Assembly: GCF_030160295.1 (NCBI RefSeq)
Contig: NZ_BSOB01000016.1
Location: forward strand, 1-64,000
Length of the DNA stretch: 64,000 nt
From: Dyella acidisoli
GTDB taxonomy: Bacteria > Pseudomonadota > Gammaproteobacteria > Xanthomonadales > Rhodanobacteraceae
Reading direction: 5' to 3'
The notes beneath the pieces were generated by a model, which saw only the letters and a list, made by a program, of their open reading frames with translations, was not told the origin of the DNA and searched no databases. The translations under genes and the position numbers were made by a program. Positions 7,767 through 54,055 of this stretch are shown in pieces (within the stretch, counting starts at the first letter, position 1; each line of letters starts with the position of its first letter).

Positions 7767-8851
7767 GGCAGCCGTGCAAACTCCACGGGTTCTGCAGCGC
7801 TCGTACGAGCCGGCAACGATCGCCACGCTTCGATCACCTCTTCCGGCGCGATCGCATCGACGCGCGTACGGACAGGTGGTCCACCCAATACGTGGACGGC
7901 TTCAGGCGTGCCGCTGCGCGGTCGCCAATGACTGACCGATCCGTTGCCGAACATCACCACCAGCGGACATCCCATGGCAGCCGCGAGATGTGCCGGCCCC
8001 GTATCCACGGAAATCATGCTGTGTGCCATCGCCAGCACCGCTTTCAGCCGTGACAATGGCAGTTCCTTGGCGACGACTTCCACGCCGGGTTGCGCCATGG
8101 CTGTGCGAATGCTCTCCAGATAAGCGCTCTCCTCCGGTGATCCACACAGCAGGATGCGCGCCTGCGGCAGAAGCGCACGCAACGCCGTGCCGATACGCAC
8201 CCAGTGTTCGATCGGCCAGGATTTATCGTCATCGCTGGCCTTGCGCACGCCGTTCCAGCGCATCGTGCGCTTGTTCGCCGGTTGCAGCAGCACTAGCGGA
8301 TGCCCGGCAAGTCCACGCTGCGCAAGCCACTGGTCGCATTCAGCACGATCCTTCGCACTGACAGCGAATGCGGGTACCGCACTGGTGACGCATGACACGC
8401 TCGCAAAGCGGTCGCTAAAGGCGGCCGGCGTGCTGTCAGCCAGTTCCAGCAAGTGTTCGATCCAGTGGCTACCGGGCGCCAGCGGAATATCGTTGAGAAA
8501 AACGCAGTGGTTGCTGGGAATACTCGCCAGCTTCAGCAGCAAGCGGATGCGCTCCAGCGAACGCGGCTGCGGTTCGCATACGTACACCGGCACGTGCCGC
8601 ATGCGCCGCAGCGCGCGAAGCACGAGCCATTGCTGCGGGCTCAACAGAAACGACCGATGGCGCGATTGCAGCGCGATCACTTCCGCCACGTCAGGGTGGT
8701 CGTGGTAGAGATCCACCGCATAGCTGCCGGTTGCCAACAGTGTGCACGCCTGCCCATAACGCGCGTGCAGGCGGCGCAGCAACGGCTGCAACAGCAACGT
8801 ATCGCCGAGGCGGCCGTAGCGGATGACGAGTGGGTGAAAAAGTGTCGGCAT
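7763..8851 (-). CDS. Glycosyltransferase family 9 (heptosyltransferase-like)
   Basis: A 362-residue GT-B fold glycosyltransferase of the ADP-heptose:LPS heptosyltransferase family. It begins with the donor-fold strand VIRYGRLGDTLLLQPLLRRL. It carries the family C-terminal motif ISVDTGPAHLAAAMGCP (D-x-G-P-x-H), followed by VVMFG. Such enzymes add heptose or a related sugar to the LPS core on the cytoplasmic face of the inner membrane. No other LPS gene lies next to it, so the acceptor is unknown. The ribosome site before ATG 8851 is weak. Confidence 0.85.
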   Translation of the reverse strand: MPTLFHPLVIRYGRLGDTLLLQPLLRRLHARYGQACTLLATGSYAVDLYHDHPDVAEVIALQSRHRSFLLSPQQWLVLRALRRMRHVPVYVCEPQPRSLERIRLLLKLASIPSNHCVFLNDIPLAPGSHWIEHLLELADSTPAAFSDRFASVSCVTSAVPAFAVSAKDRAECDQWLAQRGLAGHPLVLLQPANKRTMRWNGVRKASDDDKSWPIEHWVRIGTALRALLPQARILLCGSPEESAYLESIRTAMAQPGVEVVAKELPLSRLKAVLAMAHSMISVDTGPAHLAAAMGCPLVVMFGNGSVSHWRPRSGTPEAVHVLGGPPVRTRVDAIAPEEVIEAWRSLPARTSAAEPVEFARLP

Positions 8852-9013
8852 GGGAAGCGGTATGCGCTCGTCAACGGTTCACATCAGGCAAGCATGCTTG
8901 CCGACTGCTTACAGGAAACTTACCGCATTTTCTTGCTGTAACACGCAGCGCGAAATGCGATGCGTGTTCTTACCCGACGAAGATAAAAATCGCGTGACGA
9001 TCTACGCCGCGAC

Positions 9014-45522: not shown

Positions 45523-48500
45523 TCAGAAGCGATACCTTGCGCCAGCACTGAATACCGCCGCCTTGGTTCCGCCACCCGCAATCTGACCATCCAGATTGAC
45601 GAACCACGACCACTGATTGTTCAACACGGCGTTCAGGCCCGCGCCGATCCAACCGCTGTTCCGTGGCGAGTTCACGCCTTCCAGTTCGAACGTCGCGTTC
45701 GGTGCACCTGCATAGGCCGCGGTGAATCCAAGATTACGCCCGCTGAGCAACCGCTGGTACAAGGCAAATCCCTTTAGCGCGACCTGGCCCGTACCCCAAT
45801 TCCAGCGATAACCCAGGCGTGCACCGACTTGCGCATAGCTCTGGTTGAAGTCGTGGCTCGCCGCAGCGATACCGAAGCCACCAGCACCTTGCTCCGCAAT
45901 GGCGCCACGGCGCAAATATTCATCTCCCGCGGACACGAACGGTGTAGTGGTCCACGCATTCGACTTCGCGTCATAACCCATTTCCAGATAAGCCGACGTC
46001 ATCTTGTCGTTGCGCGAGCTGTTGATCGCCGCCGGCACAGTACCCAACACTCCCCAGCGGCTCGTGTCAGTGTGAATCCAATCCTCACCGATGCGACCCG
46101 ACAGATAGGCATTACCCATGTCGTACTTGGCATACAGCATCACGCCCGTGCCGCGCGAAGTATTGTTGCCGCCCTGCATGGAGTATCGCGAACTCAGACG
46201 ATCCCAATCCAGGCCAAGTCCCAGCGCGAAATGCTCCGCCAGCTTGACGTCGTAACCGGCAACGGACCCACCACCGCTATAGCTACCCGTGGCATAGCCC
46301 GACCGGGCGATGTCGCCATCTGCACCTGTTCCCTGAAACCATGCGCCTTGGGTTGAATGATCCTCGCCGAGATCAGCAAGGCGATCGGCCACCGTGCGGT
46401 TGACGATGCCAGCCTGCTGGAAGGTCAAACCTTGAGATGAAGCCAGCAACTGGCCTGAAAGGCTGTTGATCGAAGCTGCGGCCTGCGCAAAAGAACTGAC
46501 ATGTAGAAAATCACCCGCTGCATCAAGAAATGTCTGGTGCGACGAGGGATCGGTCACTGCCCATTGATTGGCCTGCAGCAACGCCGTTTGAATGTGCTGC
46601 GCAGTTTGCTGCGTAGTTGCTACTGCGGGCATGGCAGCCTGTGCAACCGCGGCAACCGACGCCTGACTGAGGCTCACATCTATCTGTGTAGTGGTGTAAG
46701 AGAGTGTGCCACTGGTATAGACGCTGCCACTGACACCAAGCGACCCAAATGTGCCCAGCACGCCACCGTTCGCCTGCAGCACCAGCTCCTGGGTCTGTGG
46801 CGTGTAGCCACTGGGTACATCAACGATGAGGGATGACTTGTTCAACGTAGCCACCCCTGAAATTTTCAAGGGATCACCCACTGTTATCATCGTATTGGTC
46901 ACTGGCCCGTTAGCCTGCGCAGGAACCACGGTGTAGTTGCCGTTGATCTGCAATCCGGCGACGCTCGACGTAGCAACCATGCCGCTATTTACAACGTTGC
47001 CGTTGATGGCATTCCCGGCATCAACCGTAAACAGTTGCCCTTGCTGGTTGACGGTAACGTTTGAATTCAGAACACCATCGACAACAAGGTAACCACCATT
47101 GACAATGGTGTTTCCGGCCGAAGTAGTGGTACCAGTGCTTACGTAAAGCGAACCTCCATTTACGACGATGCCGCTGATGTTGTTCTGCCCGCTCAAAGTA
47201 AGATTTCCAGCACCATCCAACTGCAGCGAGCCACTGCCGCTCAGATTGTTGGAAAAAATCGCCAACTGGTTGGCTGGGATATTGACATCGAACACGCCCC
47301 AATTGAGCTGCCCCGGGCCGTTAACTGCCGCCTGGGCATTCACCAAGCCGTAGCCGTAGTAATCAGGACTGCCCAGGTTAGTGGCTGTACCTAGCAACGT
47401 TTCCTGCACATTTGTAGGGGTAAAAAACGGAAAAGCCTGCCAAACCAATGCTGCAACACCGCTCACGACTGCCGCCGATCCTGACGTGCCATCTCCTGCG
47501 CCAGTCTTGAACCCTGTATTGGCTACAGGGGAAACATAAATGTATCCAGGCGCTGCCAAGCACCATGGCGCAGCAACGCCGCACGCATTGGACGTAGCTG
47601 CCGTATCGAGCCCCGTTACCTGGCCGCTTGCATTCAATGCAACGTTCACCACAGCGAGCCAATTCTTTTGCAGACTTGGTTCGTAATACGGCAATCCCGC
47701 TTCAATACTAGGTTGCGACATGCCTTGATTGCCCGCCGCCCATACCATCAACTGACCATTGGTGGCGGTTGATTGAAAAATCGCGTACCTCCCAGTCACC
47801 TGCGGATCCGATGCACCGACCGCAGTGATGGATGTGCTGCTGCCGTAGGAGTTGTTGATCAGCTTGACACCTTGCGCAGTCAGATCGGCCAGCGCCTGCG
47901 GAATGAGGCTGATACTGACATTGCCCGTACTATCACCGACCCTGGCGATGTACAGCGATGATTGCGGCGCCACGCCGCCATAGAAAGGATTGCCACCTGA
48001 GCCATTGGCATTCGCCGTACCGCCGATGATTTCCGCCATCAGGGTTCCATGACCATCCGTATCCTGCGGCGTGGTGTTGCTGGGATCGACATAATCCTTG
48101 AACCAGCTGATGCGATTGACCAGTGCGGAGTTAGTCGCCTGCGCACCGCTATCCAGGATTCCAACTTTCACTCCTTGCCCTTGGTTGCCGGTCACACTTT
48201 GTGCATTCACCCAGGCGAGCGGGACGTTCTCTGGGTCGAGCTGCGCACGCAGCGGGGTGTACAAAGGAATGGCAGGCGTGGGCAGTGGCGTGGGGCTGCC
48301 GGTCAGCGTCGTTGGTGCCGGCCCTGGCGAGGGAGTTGGGGCTGGCGTCGGCGCGGGTGTTGGCGCTGGAGCGGGAGCTGGCGTCGGTGTAGGAGTCGGA
48401 GTGGGGGTTGGTGTGGGCGTCGGAGCCGGCGTTGGCGTAGGCACCGGTGATGCCGTTGATGGACGCACGTTTCCATTGCCGCCACCGCCGCCTCCGCATG

Positions 48501-48567
48501 CGGTCAATGAGGCCGCCAAGGCGATTGCAACGGAAAAAGCCAGTACGTTGTGACGGTTGAAGCTCAT
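45523..48567 (-). CDS. Lipidated subtilase autotransporter (NalP/SphB1-like)
   Basis: A 1014-residue type V secreted serine protease. A lipoprotein signal ends in LTAC (lipid Cys24), followed by a Gly run and a Pro-Thr-Ala repeat (about 42-99). The S8 catalytic residues are Asp139 ([11 protein letters not shown]), His173 ([15 protein letters not shown]) and Ser362 ([16 protein letters not shown]). A beta-helix-like, Gly/Asn-rich passenger covers about 430-700. The C-terminal barrel begins near residue 750, after [16 protein letters not shown], and ends SAGARYRF. Lipidated subtilase autotransporters such as NalP and SphB1 process other surface proteins. GGGAG lies 8 bases before the ATG. GC content looks lower than that of plsB. 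Confidence 0.94.
48330..48460 (-). repeat. Coding Pro-Thr repeat (minisatellite-like)
   Basis: A stretch of imperfect six-base units encoding Pro-Thr and Pro-Ala on the minus strand, in the linker between the lipid anchor and the protease domain. Such units can gain or lose copies by slippage. Confidence 0.8.
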
Positions 48568-50098: not shown

Positions 50099-51025
50099 TT
50101 ATTTCAGGACACCCTCGCCTAGCGTCTTTCCATTGACCGTCGCGCCATACAATGAATCTGGCGTGTCGTGATACGCCTTGCGGGTTTCCTCGATGGAGCC
50201 ATGGAAACGCGGATCCTGCGGACGCTCGTGACCATTCATGAAGTACGCCACGTCCCACGCATCCTGATCGGTCAGCGTATTGCCACGACTCAAGGGCATG
50301 TTGGCCTTGATGAAACCGGCAGCGTTGTCGAGTCGTTCCATGCCGGCGCCCCAGTTGAAGGATTGCGGCCCCCATAGCGGAGGAAAAACAGTACGGCCGG
50401 CTGCTTGCTGGCCTTGGCCATTGTCGCCGTGGCACAGCGCGCAGTCGCGCTTGAAGACGGATTCGCCACGCGCGTAATCTGGAGCCTGCGCGGGCTTTGG
50501 CAATTTCGGATAGCCATGACCGAGAGGCGCGACGCCGATCGATTCGCCTTTGGACATCCAATACGCGTACGCCTCCAACGCGACCAGCACGTCATCACCA
50601 AGCGGTGGCGCCTTGCCGTTCATGCTGTACTGGAAGCAGCCCTGCAGGCGTTCGGCGAACGTATTCACGTGATGATTCTTGCTGCGGTAAGCGGGATACA
50701 TGGGATACGCGCCCCACAGTGGTGCGGATTGCGCAAGGCGGCCCGCATCAAGATGGCAGTTCTCGCAACTTAGTTGATTGCCGACGTAGCCCTTGGCGTA
50801 GCGGCCCGTGTCGATGAAGATCTGTCGACCTAGCGCGATCTGTTTGCCGAAGTCGTCGCTCGGAATCGAGGAATCTGCAGGTGGCTCGAAACCGCTCGCG
50901 TGCTTCGGCGATGTTGCCGCGGCGGCGGGTTCATTCGCTACCGATGGTGCGGCTTGCTGCGCCTTTTGATTGCATGCGGCGAGCAGGAACAACGCTCCTA
51001 TCATCATCCATGGTGACGGCTTCAT
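50099..51025 (-). CDS. tsdA: TsdA-like thiosulfate dehydrogenase, diheme cytochrome c lipoprotein
   Basis: A 308-residue diheme c-type cytochrome of the TsdA family, which joins two thiosulfates into tetrathionate (or the reverse). Heme sites are CENCH (87-91) and CALCH (195-199). The TsdA pattern is close: NCHLDAG, RLQGCFQYSMNGK, where Cys130 matches the Cys axial ligand of heme 1, then FPPLWGPQSFNWGAGMERLD and KANMP (Met243, candidate heme 2 ligand). A lipobox (FLLAAC, Cys18) suggests anchoring in a membrane facing the periplasm. The start is at 51025, overlapping the previous gene by 4 bases. It is the last gene of the four-gene operon. Substrate is inferred from the family. Confidence 0.85.
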   Translation of the reverse strand: MKPSPWMMIGALFLLAACNQKAQQAAPSVANEPAAAATSPKHASGFEPPADSSIPSDDFGKQIALGRQIFIDTGRYAKGYVGNQLSCENCHLDAGRLAQSAPLWGAYPMYPAYRSKNHHVNTFAERLQGCFQYSMNGKAPPLGDDVLVALEAYAYWMSKGESIGVAPLGHGYPKLPKPAQAPDYARGESVFKRDCALCHGDNGQGQQAAGRTVFPPLWGPQSFNWGAGMERLDNAAGFIKANMPLSRGNTLTDQDAWDVAYFMNGHERPQDPRFHGSIEETRKAYHDTPDSLYGATVNGKTLGEGVLK

Positions 51026-51684
51026 GGCTGCGCCTCCTTCACCGTCGAAGCAGGCTGCGCTGCATACCACGCACTGATCGCCGCGATATCTGCCTCGCTC
51101 AGCTTGCTCGTGACGGTTTGCATCAGTTGCAGCGGATCGTTGTGTCGCGCACCCTGCTTCCATGCATGCAACGCATTGCTGATATAGAGCACCGATTGCC
51201 CGGCCAACGGCGGAAAGTGATCACCTACGCCGCCGCCGCTGGGACCATGGCATTGTTCGCACGCAGGCAAGCCGTTCGGCCAACGTCCACGTGTGGCCAG
51301 TGTTTGCGCAACGTGCGCGGCTTCACCATCCGGTGTCTTTACAGGTGGCGCCGACGGCACAGGCAACTTGCTGTAATACTCCGCCACCGCATCACGCTCC
51401 GCATCGGTCAAGCTCATCACGACGGGTTGCATGGTGGCGTTGCTGCGGGAGCCGTTGGCGAAATCTTCCAATTGCTTGCGCAAATACGCCTGCGGTAATC
51501 CTGCAAGGCGCGGAAAGCCCGCCGCTGCCTGCCCGCCACCATCGGCACCGTGACACGCCATGCACGGCGCCGCGCCGTGGCCGTTTCCTTGCTGTGCGAT
51601 CGTGGCACCGTCCGGTGTACCTGCCAAAGCGCTCTTTGCGATCAGCACGCAGCATGCAAGCAAAACCAAGCGCAACGAGTTCAT
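51022..51684 (-). CDS. TsdB-like diheme cytochrome c (c4 type)
   Basis: A 220-residue periplasmic cytochrome. A signal peptide (cut near SALA-GTPDG, residue 21) is followed by two cytochrome c domains with heme sites CMACH (41-45) and CEQCH (142-146). Each domain has a possible Met ligand downstream, as in MQPVVMSLTDAERDAVAEY and TVTSKLSEADIAAIS. TsdB, the electron acceptor of TsdA, is such a c4-like protein and is commonly encoded beside it. Overlaps of 4 bases with both neighbours imply tight coupling. It would carry electrons from TsdA to the oxidase side. Confidence 0.85.
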   Translation of the reverse strand: MNSLRLVLLACCVLIAKSALAGTPDGATIAQQGNGHGAAPCMACHGADGGGQAAAGFPRLAGLPQAYLRKQLEDFANGSRSNATMQPVVMSLTDAERDAVAEYYSKLPVPSAPPVKTPDGEAAHVAQTLATRGRWPNGLPACEQCHGPSGGGVGDHFPPLAGQSVLYISNALHAWKQGARHNDPLQLMQTVTSKLSEADIAAISAWYAAQPASTVKEAQP

Positions 51685-52631
51685 GGTTGCGCCGGCTGGA
51701 AGCCGTACTTGCGATAGATCTCCTGTGCGTCGGCAGTAGCCATAAAGGCGAGGAAGTCCTTGGCCGCCTGCTCGTGCGGCGCATCCTTCATGCGCGCTGC
51801 GGTATAGGTTGCGGTGACGTTCTGTTCCGCCGGTATCGCGATCGTTTCCACCGGGCGATGCAGAATCTGCTGCTGGAAATACGCTTCGGTCGACCACACC
51901 GGCGCGGCGTCGGACTCGCCTTGCAATACGCGCAAGGGCGATTCGCGGTGATGGATGCGCGTGAGATAAGTGCTGCCATCCTTCACTTTGCCATCCATGA
52001 TCGCGTGATCCAGCGCGTCACCGCCCGCTTTGCGATAACTTGCCTCGATCTGCTTGGCAATGCCTTCCCACTGCGGATTGGGCATGCTCACGCGCACGTC
52101 GGCACGACCGAGATCCTTCAAGCCTTCGACGTGTTTGGGATTGCCCTTCGCCACCATGATCGCCAGCGGATTGCGCGCGTAGTCGACCGTATCGGCAAAC
52201 CAGCCACGCTGCTTCTGCAACTCCGCGATGGAGCTCTTGCCGTTGGTGAAGATATCCGGCTTCAAGGCAACGCGCAGATTGCCCATCACCAGTGAACCTG
52301 TCTCAATCTGCTTGGCAAGGATGCCCGGTGGAAGCGTCTCGACGAACACACGCTGGTACTGCGGATAGCGTTGTTTGAACGCTTCCACCAGATCGTGCAC
52401 CACCATGAACTGGTTGCCAGCGAAGAACACAGTGAGCTGCGGATCGACGATATCGCCATGCAGATCCGCAATCGCATCAAATGGCGGCACCGAAAAGGAG
52501 ACGCCTCCCGCCGGCGGCGGATTCCACGGCGGCAGATAATCCTGCTGAGCGGCGTTCACCACGCCGCAAGCGACAGCCAGCAGAGCAGCCAGCGACACGC
52601 ATCGCCGGCAACGTTTCCAAGCTAGCAACAT
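51681..52631 (-). CDS. Periplasmic solute-binding protein (PBP type II-like)
   Basis: A 316-residue exported protein with a signal peptide (cut near NAA-QQDYLP). The body resembles type II periplasmic binding proteins of the molybdate/sulfate kind: DPQLTVFFAGNQFMVVHDLV, VSMPNPQWEGIAKQIEASY, AAPVWSTEAYFQQQI and a C-terminal AAKDFLAFMATADAQEIYRK. No permease or ATPase is nearby, so it may sense or store a ligand rather than feed an ABC transporter. It lies between the DsrE-like and TsdB-like genes, which suggests a sulfur anion, but this is inference. Its stop overlaps the next ATG. Confidence 0.82.
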   Translation of the reverse strand: MLLAWKRCRRCVSLAALLAVACGVVNAAQQDYLPPWNPPPAGGVSFSVPPFDAIADLHGDIVDPQLTVFFAGNQFMVVHDLVEAFKQRYPQYQRVFVETLPPGILAKQIETGSLVMGNLRVALKPDIFTNGKSSIAELQKQRGWFADTVDYARNPLAIMVAKGNPKHVEGLKDLGRADVRVSMPNPQWEGIAKQIEASYRKAGGDALDHAIMDGKVKDGSTYLTRIHHRESPLRVLQGESDAAPVWSTEAYFQQQILHRPVETIAIPAEQNVTATYTAARMKDAPHEQAAKDFLAFMATADAQEIYRKYGFQPAQP

Positions 52632-52643
52632 GATCGATCCTTC

Positions 52644-53180
52644 TTACAACGGCATCAGGGCGTAACCCTGCTGCTGCAGCTCGGTGATGGTGGTGAGCGC
52701 GGCCAAGCTGAGCGTCACATCTTTCGACGCCCATTCGTTCGCATAGTGATGCTCAGCCATCGCCTGCCCGCACACCGCGACGTCGATGCCGGCCTTGCGC
52801 AATTGCGCAATCACCGGAAGGTTGGGATTGGCCACGCCAAATTGCGCCTTGTAATGCTCGTCGTCGAGCACCAGCGGTGTGGCTTGCCCATAGGCCACTG
52901 CAACAAACTTGAGATGATCCAGCGGCACGCCAGCGGATGCGTAGAGGTTGACCGTGCGCGCCACACGCTCCAGCGCGGGGTTGATCTGGTCGGGCTTATC
53001 GCTGGCCTTGGTCAACGAAAACACCACTTTGTAGGTCGCTGCCGGATCGGGCTGATAGGCCGCCTTGGGCAGCGGATGGTAATTGCCAGCCGCGGTGATC
53101 GGTTGCGTCGGCGCACTTTGCACAGCAGCAGCGCAACCAAGCAGACCGACGATACAGAAAAACGGAATCGAACGTTTCAT
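52644..53180 (-). CDS. Exported DsrE-family protein
   Basis: A 178-residue protein of the DsrE/DsrF-like fold with a signal peptide ([20 protein letters not shown]), cut near QSA-PTQP. The core shows [47 protein letters not shown] and, near residue 137, a single Cys in [13 protein letters not shown], the usual position of the sulfur-carrying Cys of DsrE-type proteins. Cytoplasmic DsrE proteins shuttle sulfane sulfur; a periplasmic one here, ahead of a PBP and TsdBA, is unusual. It heads the operon, divergent from ubiE. Confidence 0.85.
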
Positions 53181-53305
53181 GCCCCAGCCCCTTTGCGGAA
53201 GTTGGCCGCAAGGCTACGCCGGCCGAGGCCATCAGACCACTGCATGTTGCCTATATGACGGATAAGCCAGCTTTATCGTCGCGCGTCATCCTGTACCATT
53301 CGCGC

Positions 53306-54055
53306 ATGAGCGAGCAGCCCACCACCCATTTCGGTTTCCGCGACGTGCCGGTCACGGAGAAGCAAAAGCTGGTCGGCCAGGTATTTACCTCGGTCGCCCA
53401 CAACTACGACCTGATGAACGACCTGATGTCGTTCGGCATCCATCGCCTATGGAAGCGCCATTTCGTGGCCATCAGCGGCATCCGCCGCGGCGACCGCGTA
53501 CTGGACCTTGCTGGCGGCACCGGCGACATCGCGGCGCTGATCAAGCCGGTCGTGGGCGAGAGTGGCGAAGTGATCGTGGGTGATATCAATGCAGCCATGC
53601 TCAACGTGGGCCGCGACCGGCTCACCGATCGTGGACTGGTCGGCGGCCTGCGCTGGACGCAATTGAATGCCGAAGCACTGCCCTTTCCTGACAACAGCTT
53701 CGACGCTGTGACCATGGCCTTCGGCCTGCGCAACGTGACCGACAAGGACAAGGCACTGGCGGACATCTGCCGCGTGCTCAAGCCGGGCGGTCGCGCGCTG
53801 GTGCTGGAGTTTTCCAAGGTGCGCAACGAGCTGTTCAGCAAGCTCTACGATTTCCATTCGTTCCAGGTGCTGCCGAAGCTGGGAAGGTTGTTCGCCAGTG
53901 ACGCGGACAGCTACCAATACCTGGCCGAATCGATCCGCAAGCATCCGGATCAGGAAACGCTCAAAGCCATGATGGAGCGCGCGGGTTTCGAGCGTGTTGA
54001 AGTGCGCAACCTCAGCAACGGGATCGTGGCGATTCATCGCGCTTACAAGCTCTGA
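53306..54055 (+). CDS. ubiE: Bifunctional demethylmenaquinone/ubiquinone methyltransferase
   Basis: A 249-residue SAM-dependent methyltransferase that acts at the C-methylation step of ubiquinone (and menaquinone) synthesis. Family sequence is [39 protein letters not shown], the SAM motif [32 protein letters not shown] and [17 protein letters not shown] 53306 ([10 protein letters not shown]) fits the family; the frame begins 51 bases upstream. It is a single gene, and a short remnant of an outer-membrane protein follows on the other strand. Confidence 0.97.

Follow-up and report, generated by a model that had tools for sequence, protein, structure and literature searches.

An orphan solute-binding protein and an exported DsrE-family protein as putative accessories of TsdBA and other tetrathionate-forming thiosulfate oxidases

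Introduction

To our knowledge, little is understood of how thiosulfate arrives at periplasmic oxidases, how tetrathionate leaves them and how the sulfur is then transferred inwards. The diheme cytochromes TsdBA are a textbook system of thiosulfate oxidation, and a stretch of 64,000 nucleotides of Dyella acidisoli (contig NZ_BSOB01000016.1, positions 1 to 64,000; hereafter called the window) raises the question of what an exported DsrE-family protein and an orphan solute-binding protein (SBP) do beside them. The four genes form one minus-strand operon (50099-53180), with the order of transcription DsrE, SBP, TsdB-like and TsdA-like. The original prediction, made from the DNA alone, had described this order and proposed that a sulfur anion is bound outside the membrane and sulfane sulfur is passed to a periplasmic carrier. 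We confirmed the four genes and their families, and the interpretation was partly supported. Analyses of related loci showed that the two accessories are found next to unrelated thiosulfate oxidases as well.

Results

A TsdBA pair preceded by two accessory genes

The last two genes of the operon are predicted to code for a TsdBA pair, an identity well supported by matches to solved structures and by invariant ligand residues. The TsdA-like protein (50099..51025, minus strand, 308 residues) harbours a SoxA/TsdA cytochrome domain (SoxA-TsdA, PF21342, E=4.7e-10) and a second cytochrome c domain, with two CxxCH motifs. The TsdB-like protein (51022..51684, minus strand, 220 residues), a c4-type diheme cytochrome coded immediately upstream of tsdA, also has cytochrome c domains and two CxxCH motifs, with Met residues at positions 85, 90 and 188. 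For both, the closest solved structure is the TsdBA fusion 5lo9 from Marichromatium purpuratum (PMC9237845), TsdA matching its C-terminal part (E=5.8e-83) and TsdB its N-terminal part (E=4.1e-39, with cytochromes c4 next best), which bears out the pairing proposed initially. TsdA also matches A. vinosum TsdA (4wq7) with E-values of about 1e-52 to 3e-52. Its predicted ligands are Cys130 for heme 1 and Lys240-x-Asn242-Met243 for heme 2, which correspond by motif to Cys138, Lys252, Asn254 and Met255 of C. jejuni TsdA (CjTsdA); the roles of Cys138, Asn254 and Met255 were measured, according to a section of PMC5146829. Cys130, Asn242 and Met243 are invariant in the 19 relatives aligned, which range from Pseudomonadota to Hymenobacter, so that the earlier proposal of Cys130 and Met243 as TsdA-type axial ligands is supported. 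Catalysis by TsdA proceeds through a Cys-S-thiosulfonate intermediate, as described in part of PMC4423706. TsdB is presumably the electron acceptor of TsdA, and the pair probably works in the oxidative direction, from thiosulfate to tetrathionate. The N-terminus of TsdA has a lipobox-like stretch, LLAAC18, identified by eye.

The SBP gene (51681..52631, minus strand) codes for an orphan periplasmic protein of 316 residues with an SBP_bac_11 domain (PF13531, E=1.2e-44). Its sequence kin are the sulfate, thiosulfate and molybdate binders CysP, Sbp, ModA and SubI; the SubI sulfate-binding protein is the best PDB match in profile searches (E=2.5e-13), and Foldseek retrieved binding proteins of the ModA/SubI type, with E-values down to 5e-13 and TM scores of 0.4-0.5. 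A sulfur oxyanion is a candidate ligand. The protein nevertheless scores below every curated transport-SBP cut-off (31 bits vs 308 for CysP and 31.7 vs 62.5 for modA), and no ABC permease or ATPase was found among its scanned window neighbours, namely TsdBA, DsrE, UbiE, GST, EamA, an AsnC-type regulator and an autotransporter. The residues invariant in all 30 proteins of a wider alignment (A1) include His-His-Arg at positions 199-201 of the mature protein. The binding sites of Sbp and ModA are not known to have charged side chains.

The exported DsrE-family protein (52644..53180, minus strand, 178 residues) corresponds to PF02635 (E=1.8e-10; 41.4 bits vs a gathering cut-off of 22.7). Residues 1-23 form a signal peptide, as judged by eye, and Cys9 and Cys16 fall inside it, leaving Cys137 (Cys114 of the mature protein) as the sole Cys of the mature protein; a sole conserved Cys had been noted from the sequence. 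Cys137 is identical in the 25 proteins of the DsrE alignment (A2), and Cys16, a possible lipobox Cys, is absent from several relatives outside the genus. In the structure model (pLDDT 82.6), Cys137 is located at the end of a strand preceding a helix; the models were built from window and related-locus sequences, with 19 rows for SBP and 16 for DsrE. Foldseek matched the DsrE model with 1l1s, titled unknown function (E=1.5e-4), and with the DsrE/DsrF-like 3mc3 (E=1.7e-4), with TM scores of about 0.5. The protein does not look like part of a DsrEFH or DsrE3A-TusA relay, as it has a signal sequence (by eye) and no DsrF, DsrH or TusA is coded among the operon genes. No DsrE relative was found in the viral contigs searched.

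The predicted 4-base overlaps of the last three genes are present as ATGA at both junctions (51681..51684 for SBP/TsdB and 51022..51025 for TsdB/TsdA, minus strand), and DsrE and SBP are separated by 12 nucleotides. In the 12 nearest loci (L021-L031 and L050), two of which are contigs of metagenome-assembled genomes (MAGs) labelled Lysobacterales and Eremiobacteraeota, both overlaps are found with a start codon, which in one case is GTG at the SBP/TsdB junction. The ATGA overlap may couple the translation of SBP and TsdB. In the distant loci L061, L086 and L090, the 4-base overlap at this junction has no start codon.

Conservation in the family and at TsdA loci

We collected 37 genomes of the family, including that of the window (G000), 15 of the genus and 21 others. 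TsdA was found in 21 of them (E<1e-100), of which 20 harbour DsrE (E<=4.1e-63) and 20 SBP (E<=4.2e-68). In the other 16 genomes, DsrE was without a match at E<=0.001, and the SBP matches were all weak (E>=9e-8). Within the family, the expected co-occurrence of the accessories with TsdA is thus observed. In a second set of 77 public TsdA loci, some of which end at contig edges and several of which overlap the genome set (e.g. L031 = G034), all four genes are present in order at 15 loci, and SBP-TsdB-TsdA without a DsrE match at 4. The nearest named TsdA loci belong to Dyella species (77-84% identity), and four additional family loci, L206-L209, carry the four-gene order, which is therefore conserved as a unit. 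Recurrence in distant places weighs more than these family counts, because close kin are not independent.

Two of these loci deserve a separate comment. L026 is a contig labelled Candidatus Eremiobacteraeota with a Dyella-like four-gene operon (72-86% identity), and the label probably results from mis-binning. In L208 (genome G027, about 8640-8960), SBP and TsdB appear fused in a single 569-residue frame. We rejected this fusion after examining three frames: the usual C-terminus of SBP is found in another frame and TsdB retains a signal-peptide-like stretch inside the apparent fusion, indicating a frameshift, real or due to sequencing, and no physical linkage.

The accessories are found beside three unrelated oxidases

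We characterized the locus contexts using tblastn with 28 named queries, because the calling of longest ORFs is unreliable in G+C-rich loci. Relatives of the SBP were found next to three tetrathionate-forming thiosulfate oxidases that are unrelated to each other: TsdBA, DoxDA and a Tat-exported dehydrogenase of the AFE_0042 type. DsrE is found with the first two. The DsrE-SBP-TsdBA arrangement is present on a Komagataeibacter plasmid, with one extra SBP in between and genes for a cbb3-type oxidase behind, in the MAGs L061, L086 and L090 and in G442, from another class; in G477 it is split across two contigs that we assumed to represent one locus. On Hymenobacter plasmids (Bacteroidota), a TsdA-type cytochrome is encoded together with a DsrE of low identity (21%) and two SBPs, one of them 57-62% identical.

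DsrE-SBP-DoxDA was found in G099 and G177. In addition, three genomes of the window's genus harbour one DsrE-SBP pair with TsdBA and a second one beside DoxDA (G006:C16, L237; G011:C10, L238; G015:C36, L239). An additional SBP, called SBP2, is encoded in L238 and L239, and L239 has two DsrE genes in tandem. The Tat-exported protein precedes SBP with TsdBA in Paraburkholderia/Burkholderia, Methylobacterium, Bosea, Bradyrhizobium and G638, and with DoxDA on Acetobacter/Gluconobacter plasmids and in G067. It scores above the cut-off of the NCBIfam ThioSDhTetH entry ('thiosulfate dehydrogenase') in the 10 proteins scanned (17 references listed), and we equated it with AFE_0042 on the basis of this family name and the common Tat-SBP-DoxDA order. 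DoxD and DoxA domains were both present in the six DoxDA proteins scanned. SBP is therefore kept while the neighbouring oxidase changes among three unrelated enzymes. The best reading is that SBP, and in part DsrE, represent optional accessories to several tetrathionate-forming oxidases. The original prediction of DsrE and SBP as additions to the TsdA system stands for the family operon, but they are not specific to TsdA.

Some relatives belong to larger islands that, by annotation, include YeeE, a metallo-beta-lactamase-type (MBL) hydrolase, an FAD/NAD(P) oxidoreductase, TauE/SafE and genes for a cbb3-type oxidase; DsrE of G574 shares its island with YeeE, MBL hydrolase and FAD/NAD(P)-oxidoreductase-like genes. 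The sulfur island L210, on a Paraburkholderia fungorum plasmid (375000-402000), codes for two TsdBA sets, two SBPs of the window type and two DsrE, together with a cbb3-type oxidase, a YeeE pair, an FAD/NAD(P) oxidoreductase, an MBL hydrolase, TauE/SafE, TlpA and DsbC. The shorter SBP2, also an SBP_bac_11 protein, recurs in L098 (8655-9425), L211 (9857-10630) and L217 (7262-8026).

Wider samples and trees

To these sets we added pooled samples of the class (274 genomes) and the phylum (354 genomes), with thresholds of E<=1e-60 for SBP and E<=1e-20 for DsrE. Close SBPs were found in 13 pooled genomes, with an adjoining oxidase in eight of them (G000, G067, G099, G177, G442, G477, G508 and G638); three of the six close SBPs of the class sample adjoin DoxDA. 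A member of the SBP family in G215 (L193, 7862-8686) lacks a recognizable signal peptide in the frame as called; a weak DsrE match adjoins it, and no oxidase was found there.

We built trees of 39 SBP and 34 DsrE proteins, both with several long branches that make details unsure. In the SBP tree, a long branch with full support (100/100) separates 15 proteins including that of the window (13 with TsdA-type partners and 2 with none) from 24 others (14 TsdA-type, 7 DoxDA and 3 none). The TsdA label of L255 is based on a weak TsdA-domain cytochrome at a distance of 2.5 kb, and that of L099 on a divergently oriented TsdBA. The oxidase partner changed at least four times on the best SBP tree, and well-supported branches alone force two changes for DoxDA. 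DoxDA-linked proteins are found in two places of the DsrE tree. A recent duplication of the window pair as the origin of the DoxDA-linked pair in the three genomes of the genus was rejected, because their SBPs fall on the two sides of the long, fully supported branch.

Flanking regions and the rest of the genome

The intergenic stretch between dsrE and the divergent ubiE gene (53181..53305; the ubiE start at 53306 was judged by eye) is the presumed promoter region. A scan of it revealed no sigma-70-like match, vs a mean of 1.0 in shuffled sequences. Upstream of dsrE, a stretch of 153 bases is conserved in 12 aligned loci with a mean column identity of 74%, part of which corresponds to the N-terminus of UbiE. 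A LysR-like gene divergent to DsrE adjoins several relatives, and none is present beside the operon in the window. Among the scanned neighbours, the subtilase autotransporter (45523-48567, minus strand) has Peptidase_S8 and autotransporter domains, and its signal region is followed by a long linker rich in Pro and Thr.

In the window's own genome, the best SoxB score is 30.9 bits vs a cut-off of 550, and DoxD (PF04173) has no match at E<=0.001. At G000:C5:338835-340915 (L263, 6836-8916), we found two YeeE matches of half size, just above cut-off, together with genes for an ArsR regulator and an MBL hydrolase. This cluster is likely to be a persulfide/thiosulfate handling operon, and its YeeE is a possible inward route for sulfur.

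Discussion

The window operon resembles known TsdBA systems (M. purpuratum 5lo9 and A. vinosum TsdA 4wq7) in its two cytochromes, the TsdB-TsdA order, the Cys heme ligand and the Met ligand of heme 2. Unlike those of 5lo9, its cytochromes are separate, and the genes of the exported DsrE and of SBP, the latter overlapping, stand ahead of theirs. An orphan SBP of the sulfate/molybdate type accompanying a tetrathionate-forming oxidase is also found in the A. ferrooxidans tsd-sbp-doxDA cluster (AFE_0041-0050), whose AFE_0043 we likened to the window SBP by description only. A description of that cluster, with its TAT-signal protein, periplasmic SBP and doxDA, dates from 2008 and remarks on a similar organisation in Gluconobacter oxydans (a section of PMC2621215); it was drawn as tsd, sbp, doxDA and rhd in 2019 (part of PMC6335251). 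The same TSD-SBP-DoxDA order occurs on the Acetobacter and Gluconobacter plasmids. The window operon differs from it in having neither TSD nor DoxDA, and the A. ferrooxidans cluster names no DsrE. AFE_0043, beside doxDA, was higher on sulfur, and the second copy AFE_0049 was unchanged, as given in part of PMC2754497. Passages of PMC6335251 state that Acidithiobacillus encodes no TsdA homologues and that AFE_0042, named by Kikumoto et al. 2013, reduces neither ubiquinone nor cytochrome c.

The SBP in a thiosulfate-oxidation cluster of Acidithiobacillus was thus already known. D. thiooxydans is known to oxidise thiosulfate, and its genome paper is silent on these operon genes (PMC4919399). In our searches of the open-licence literature, we found no title or abstract opening that joins an exported DsrE or a window-type SBP with TsdBA. 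As far as these searches reach, three observations are new: SBP and an exported DsrE form part of TsdBA operons, the oxidase is exchanged while the accessories remain, and both arrangements occur in one genus.

What might the accessories do? From the gene content, conservation and residues observed, we infer a ligand and a sulfur transfer as follows. In the periplasm, SBP would bind thiosulfate or tetrathionate, which it would pass to the oxidase or receive from the latter. TsdA would join two thiosulfates to tetrathionate at the Cys130-ligated heme, as suggested by homology and residues, with electrons flowing via heme 2 (Met243) to TsdB and the respiratory chain. Cys137 of DsrE might then react with tetrathionate to give a Cys-S-thiosulfonate, to be carried to an acceptor, possibly the YeeE-type transporter from another part of the genome. 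The DsrE3A protein of M. cuprina (Metallosphaera cuprina) forms Cys-S-thiosulfonates with tetrathionate and is unreactive with thiosulfate, according to part of PMC4175335. This chemistry, together with the Cys-S-thiosulfonate of TsdA, makes periplasmic thiosulfonate transfer by the exported DsrE chemically plausible, and by analogy its cargo would be thiosulfonate from tetrathionate instead of the sulfane sulfur proposed originally. We put the chances of such an operon for periplasmic, tetrathionate-forming thiosulfate oxidation, with SBP binding a sulfur oxyanion for TsdBA and DsrE accepting thiosulfonate on Cys137, at slightly under even.

Several observations speak against it. The likeness of the window DsrE to DsrE3A, in family and by analogy in a reactive Cys, spans domains of life and compartments: DsrE3A is archaeal, has two reactive Cys residues and is encoded with TusA and Hdr genes, whereas the window protein is exported, has one Cys and no TusA in its operon. 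The SBP structure model is of middling quality (pLDDT 69.8). Neither accessory was found at 58 of the 77 TsdA loci, in the DNA fetched, which is cut by contig ends in some cases, and in the family G020 has TsdBA but no close SBP, with a distant DsrE (35%) just downstream. Across the class, the co-occurrence seen in the family is lost, as 31 genomes harbour TsdA (E<1e-60) and a close SBP is found in one of them, the window's own, and a close DsrE in two, in one case on a different contig. In five of the 13 genomes with a close SBP (G215, G321, G334, G381 and G601), no TsdBA, DoxDA or AFE_0042-type gene was found beside it, and no partner was found for weaker SBP relatives (37-41%) at five further loci (L195, L196, L198 and L203 with the 28 queries; L197 with the four window proteins). 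Similarly, seven genomes of the class sample have a full DoxD match (E<1e-20), and in four of these the DNA fetched around it, short for some, revealed neither SBP nor DsrE. Close DsrE proteins occur in 14 pooled genomes with an adjacent SBP in five, the contexts of G526, G602 and G663 being left out. Finally, the window SBP belongs to the side of the tree with TsdA-type partners or no oxidase, and oxidase exchange is confined to the other side.

Alternatively, the operon might be mainly reductive or protective, so that TsdB would supply TsdA with electrons for the reduction of tetrathionate, and toxic tetrathionate or thiosulfonates would be bound and cleared by SBP and DsrE. We consider this unlikely. 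TsdA is bifunctional, and the Lys-x-Asn-Met motif of heme 2 is shared with the C. jejuni enzyme, which was investigated as a tetrathionate reductase, but Asn is found in the 19 aligned relatives and in 5lo9 and is therefore no reductase marker. Moreover, the accessories of sister loci are accompanied by DoxDA and AFE_0042-type enzymes, described as thiosulfate oxidases, and by genes for cbb3-type oxidases.

A role in maintenance, with SBP folding or docking the cytochromes and DsrE repairing blocked Cys residues, such as a dead-end thiosulfonate on the heme-ligand Cys, seems similarly doubtful to us. It would fit the 4-base SBP/TsdB overlap in the 12 nearest loci, the conversion of the TsdA Cys to a thiosulfonate (part of PMC4423706) and the DsbD/DsbG or TlpA/DsbC genes that adjoin some DsrE relatives. 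The SBP nevertheless retains the sequence and fold signals of binding proteins and many invariant residues, and both accessories are absent from most TsdA loci, as said above. They also accompany DoxDA, for which we know of no Cys-ligated heme.

It is improbable that SBP is a sensor or scavenger of sulfate, thiosulfate or molybdate for sulfur assimilation that shares the operon incidentally. It does resemble the transport proteins CysP, Sbp/SubI and ModA in fold and, distantly, in sequence, and two orphan SBPs of one genus are located near a branched-chain-type ABC transporter (by eye); unlike those transport proteins, it has no ABC transporter among its scanned neighbours, lies below the curated cut-offs and has invariants of its own such as His-His-Arg, and it is repeatedly paired with three thiosulfate oxidases. 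Lastly, mere descent, with four genes kept together in a family without joint function, would agree with the origin of most full four-gene cases in one family and with the absence of class-wide co-occurrence of SBP and TsdA by genome count, but is likewise improbable given that such combinations recur in other classes and phyla, from the Komagataeibacter plasmid, the MAGs and G442 to Hymenobacter, and the partner changes on the SBP tree.

Returning to periplasmic thiosulfate oxidation, that an accessory is kept while the oxidase is swapped among three unrelated enzymes points to a common step. Tentatively, the accessories may form a dedicated periplasmic thiosulfate/tetrathionate module, in which SBP would channel substrate or product to any of the three non-homologous oxidases, and the exported DsrE would be a thiosulfonate carrier linking the formation of tetrathionate outside to the import and oxidation of sulfur inside. 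This would give a hint for the role of the SBP in the tsd-doxDA cluster of A. ferrooxidans, and the question is approachable with small soluble proteins.

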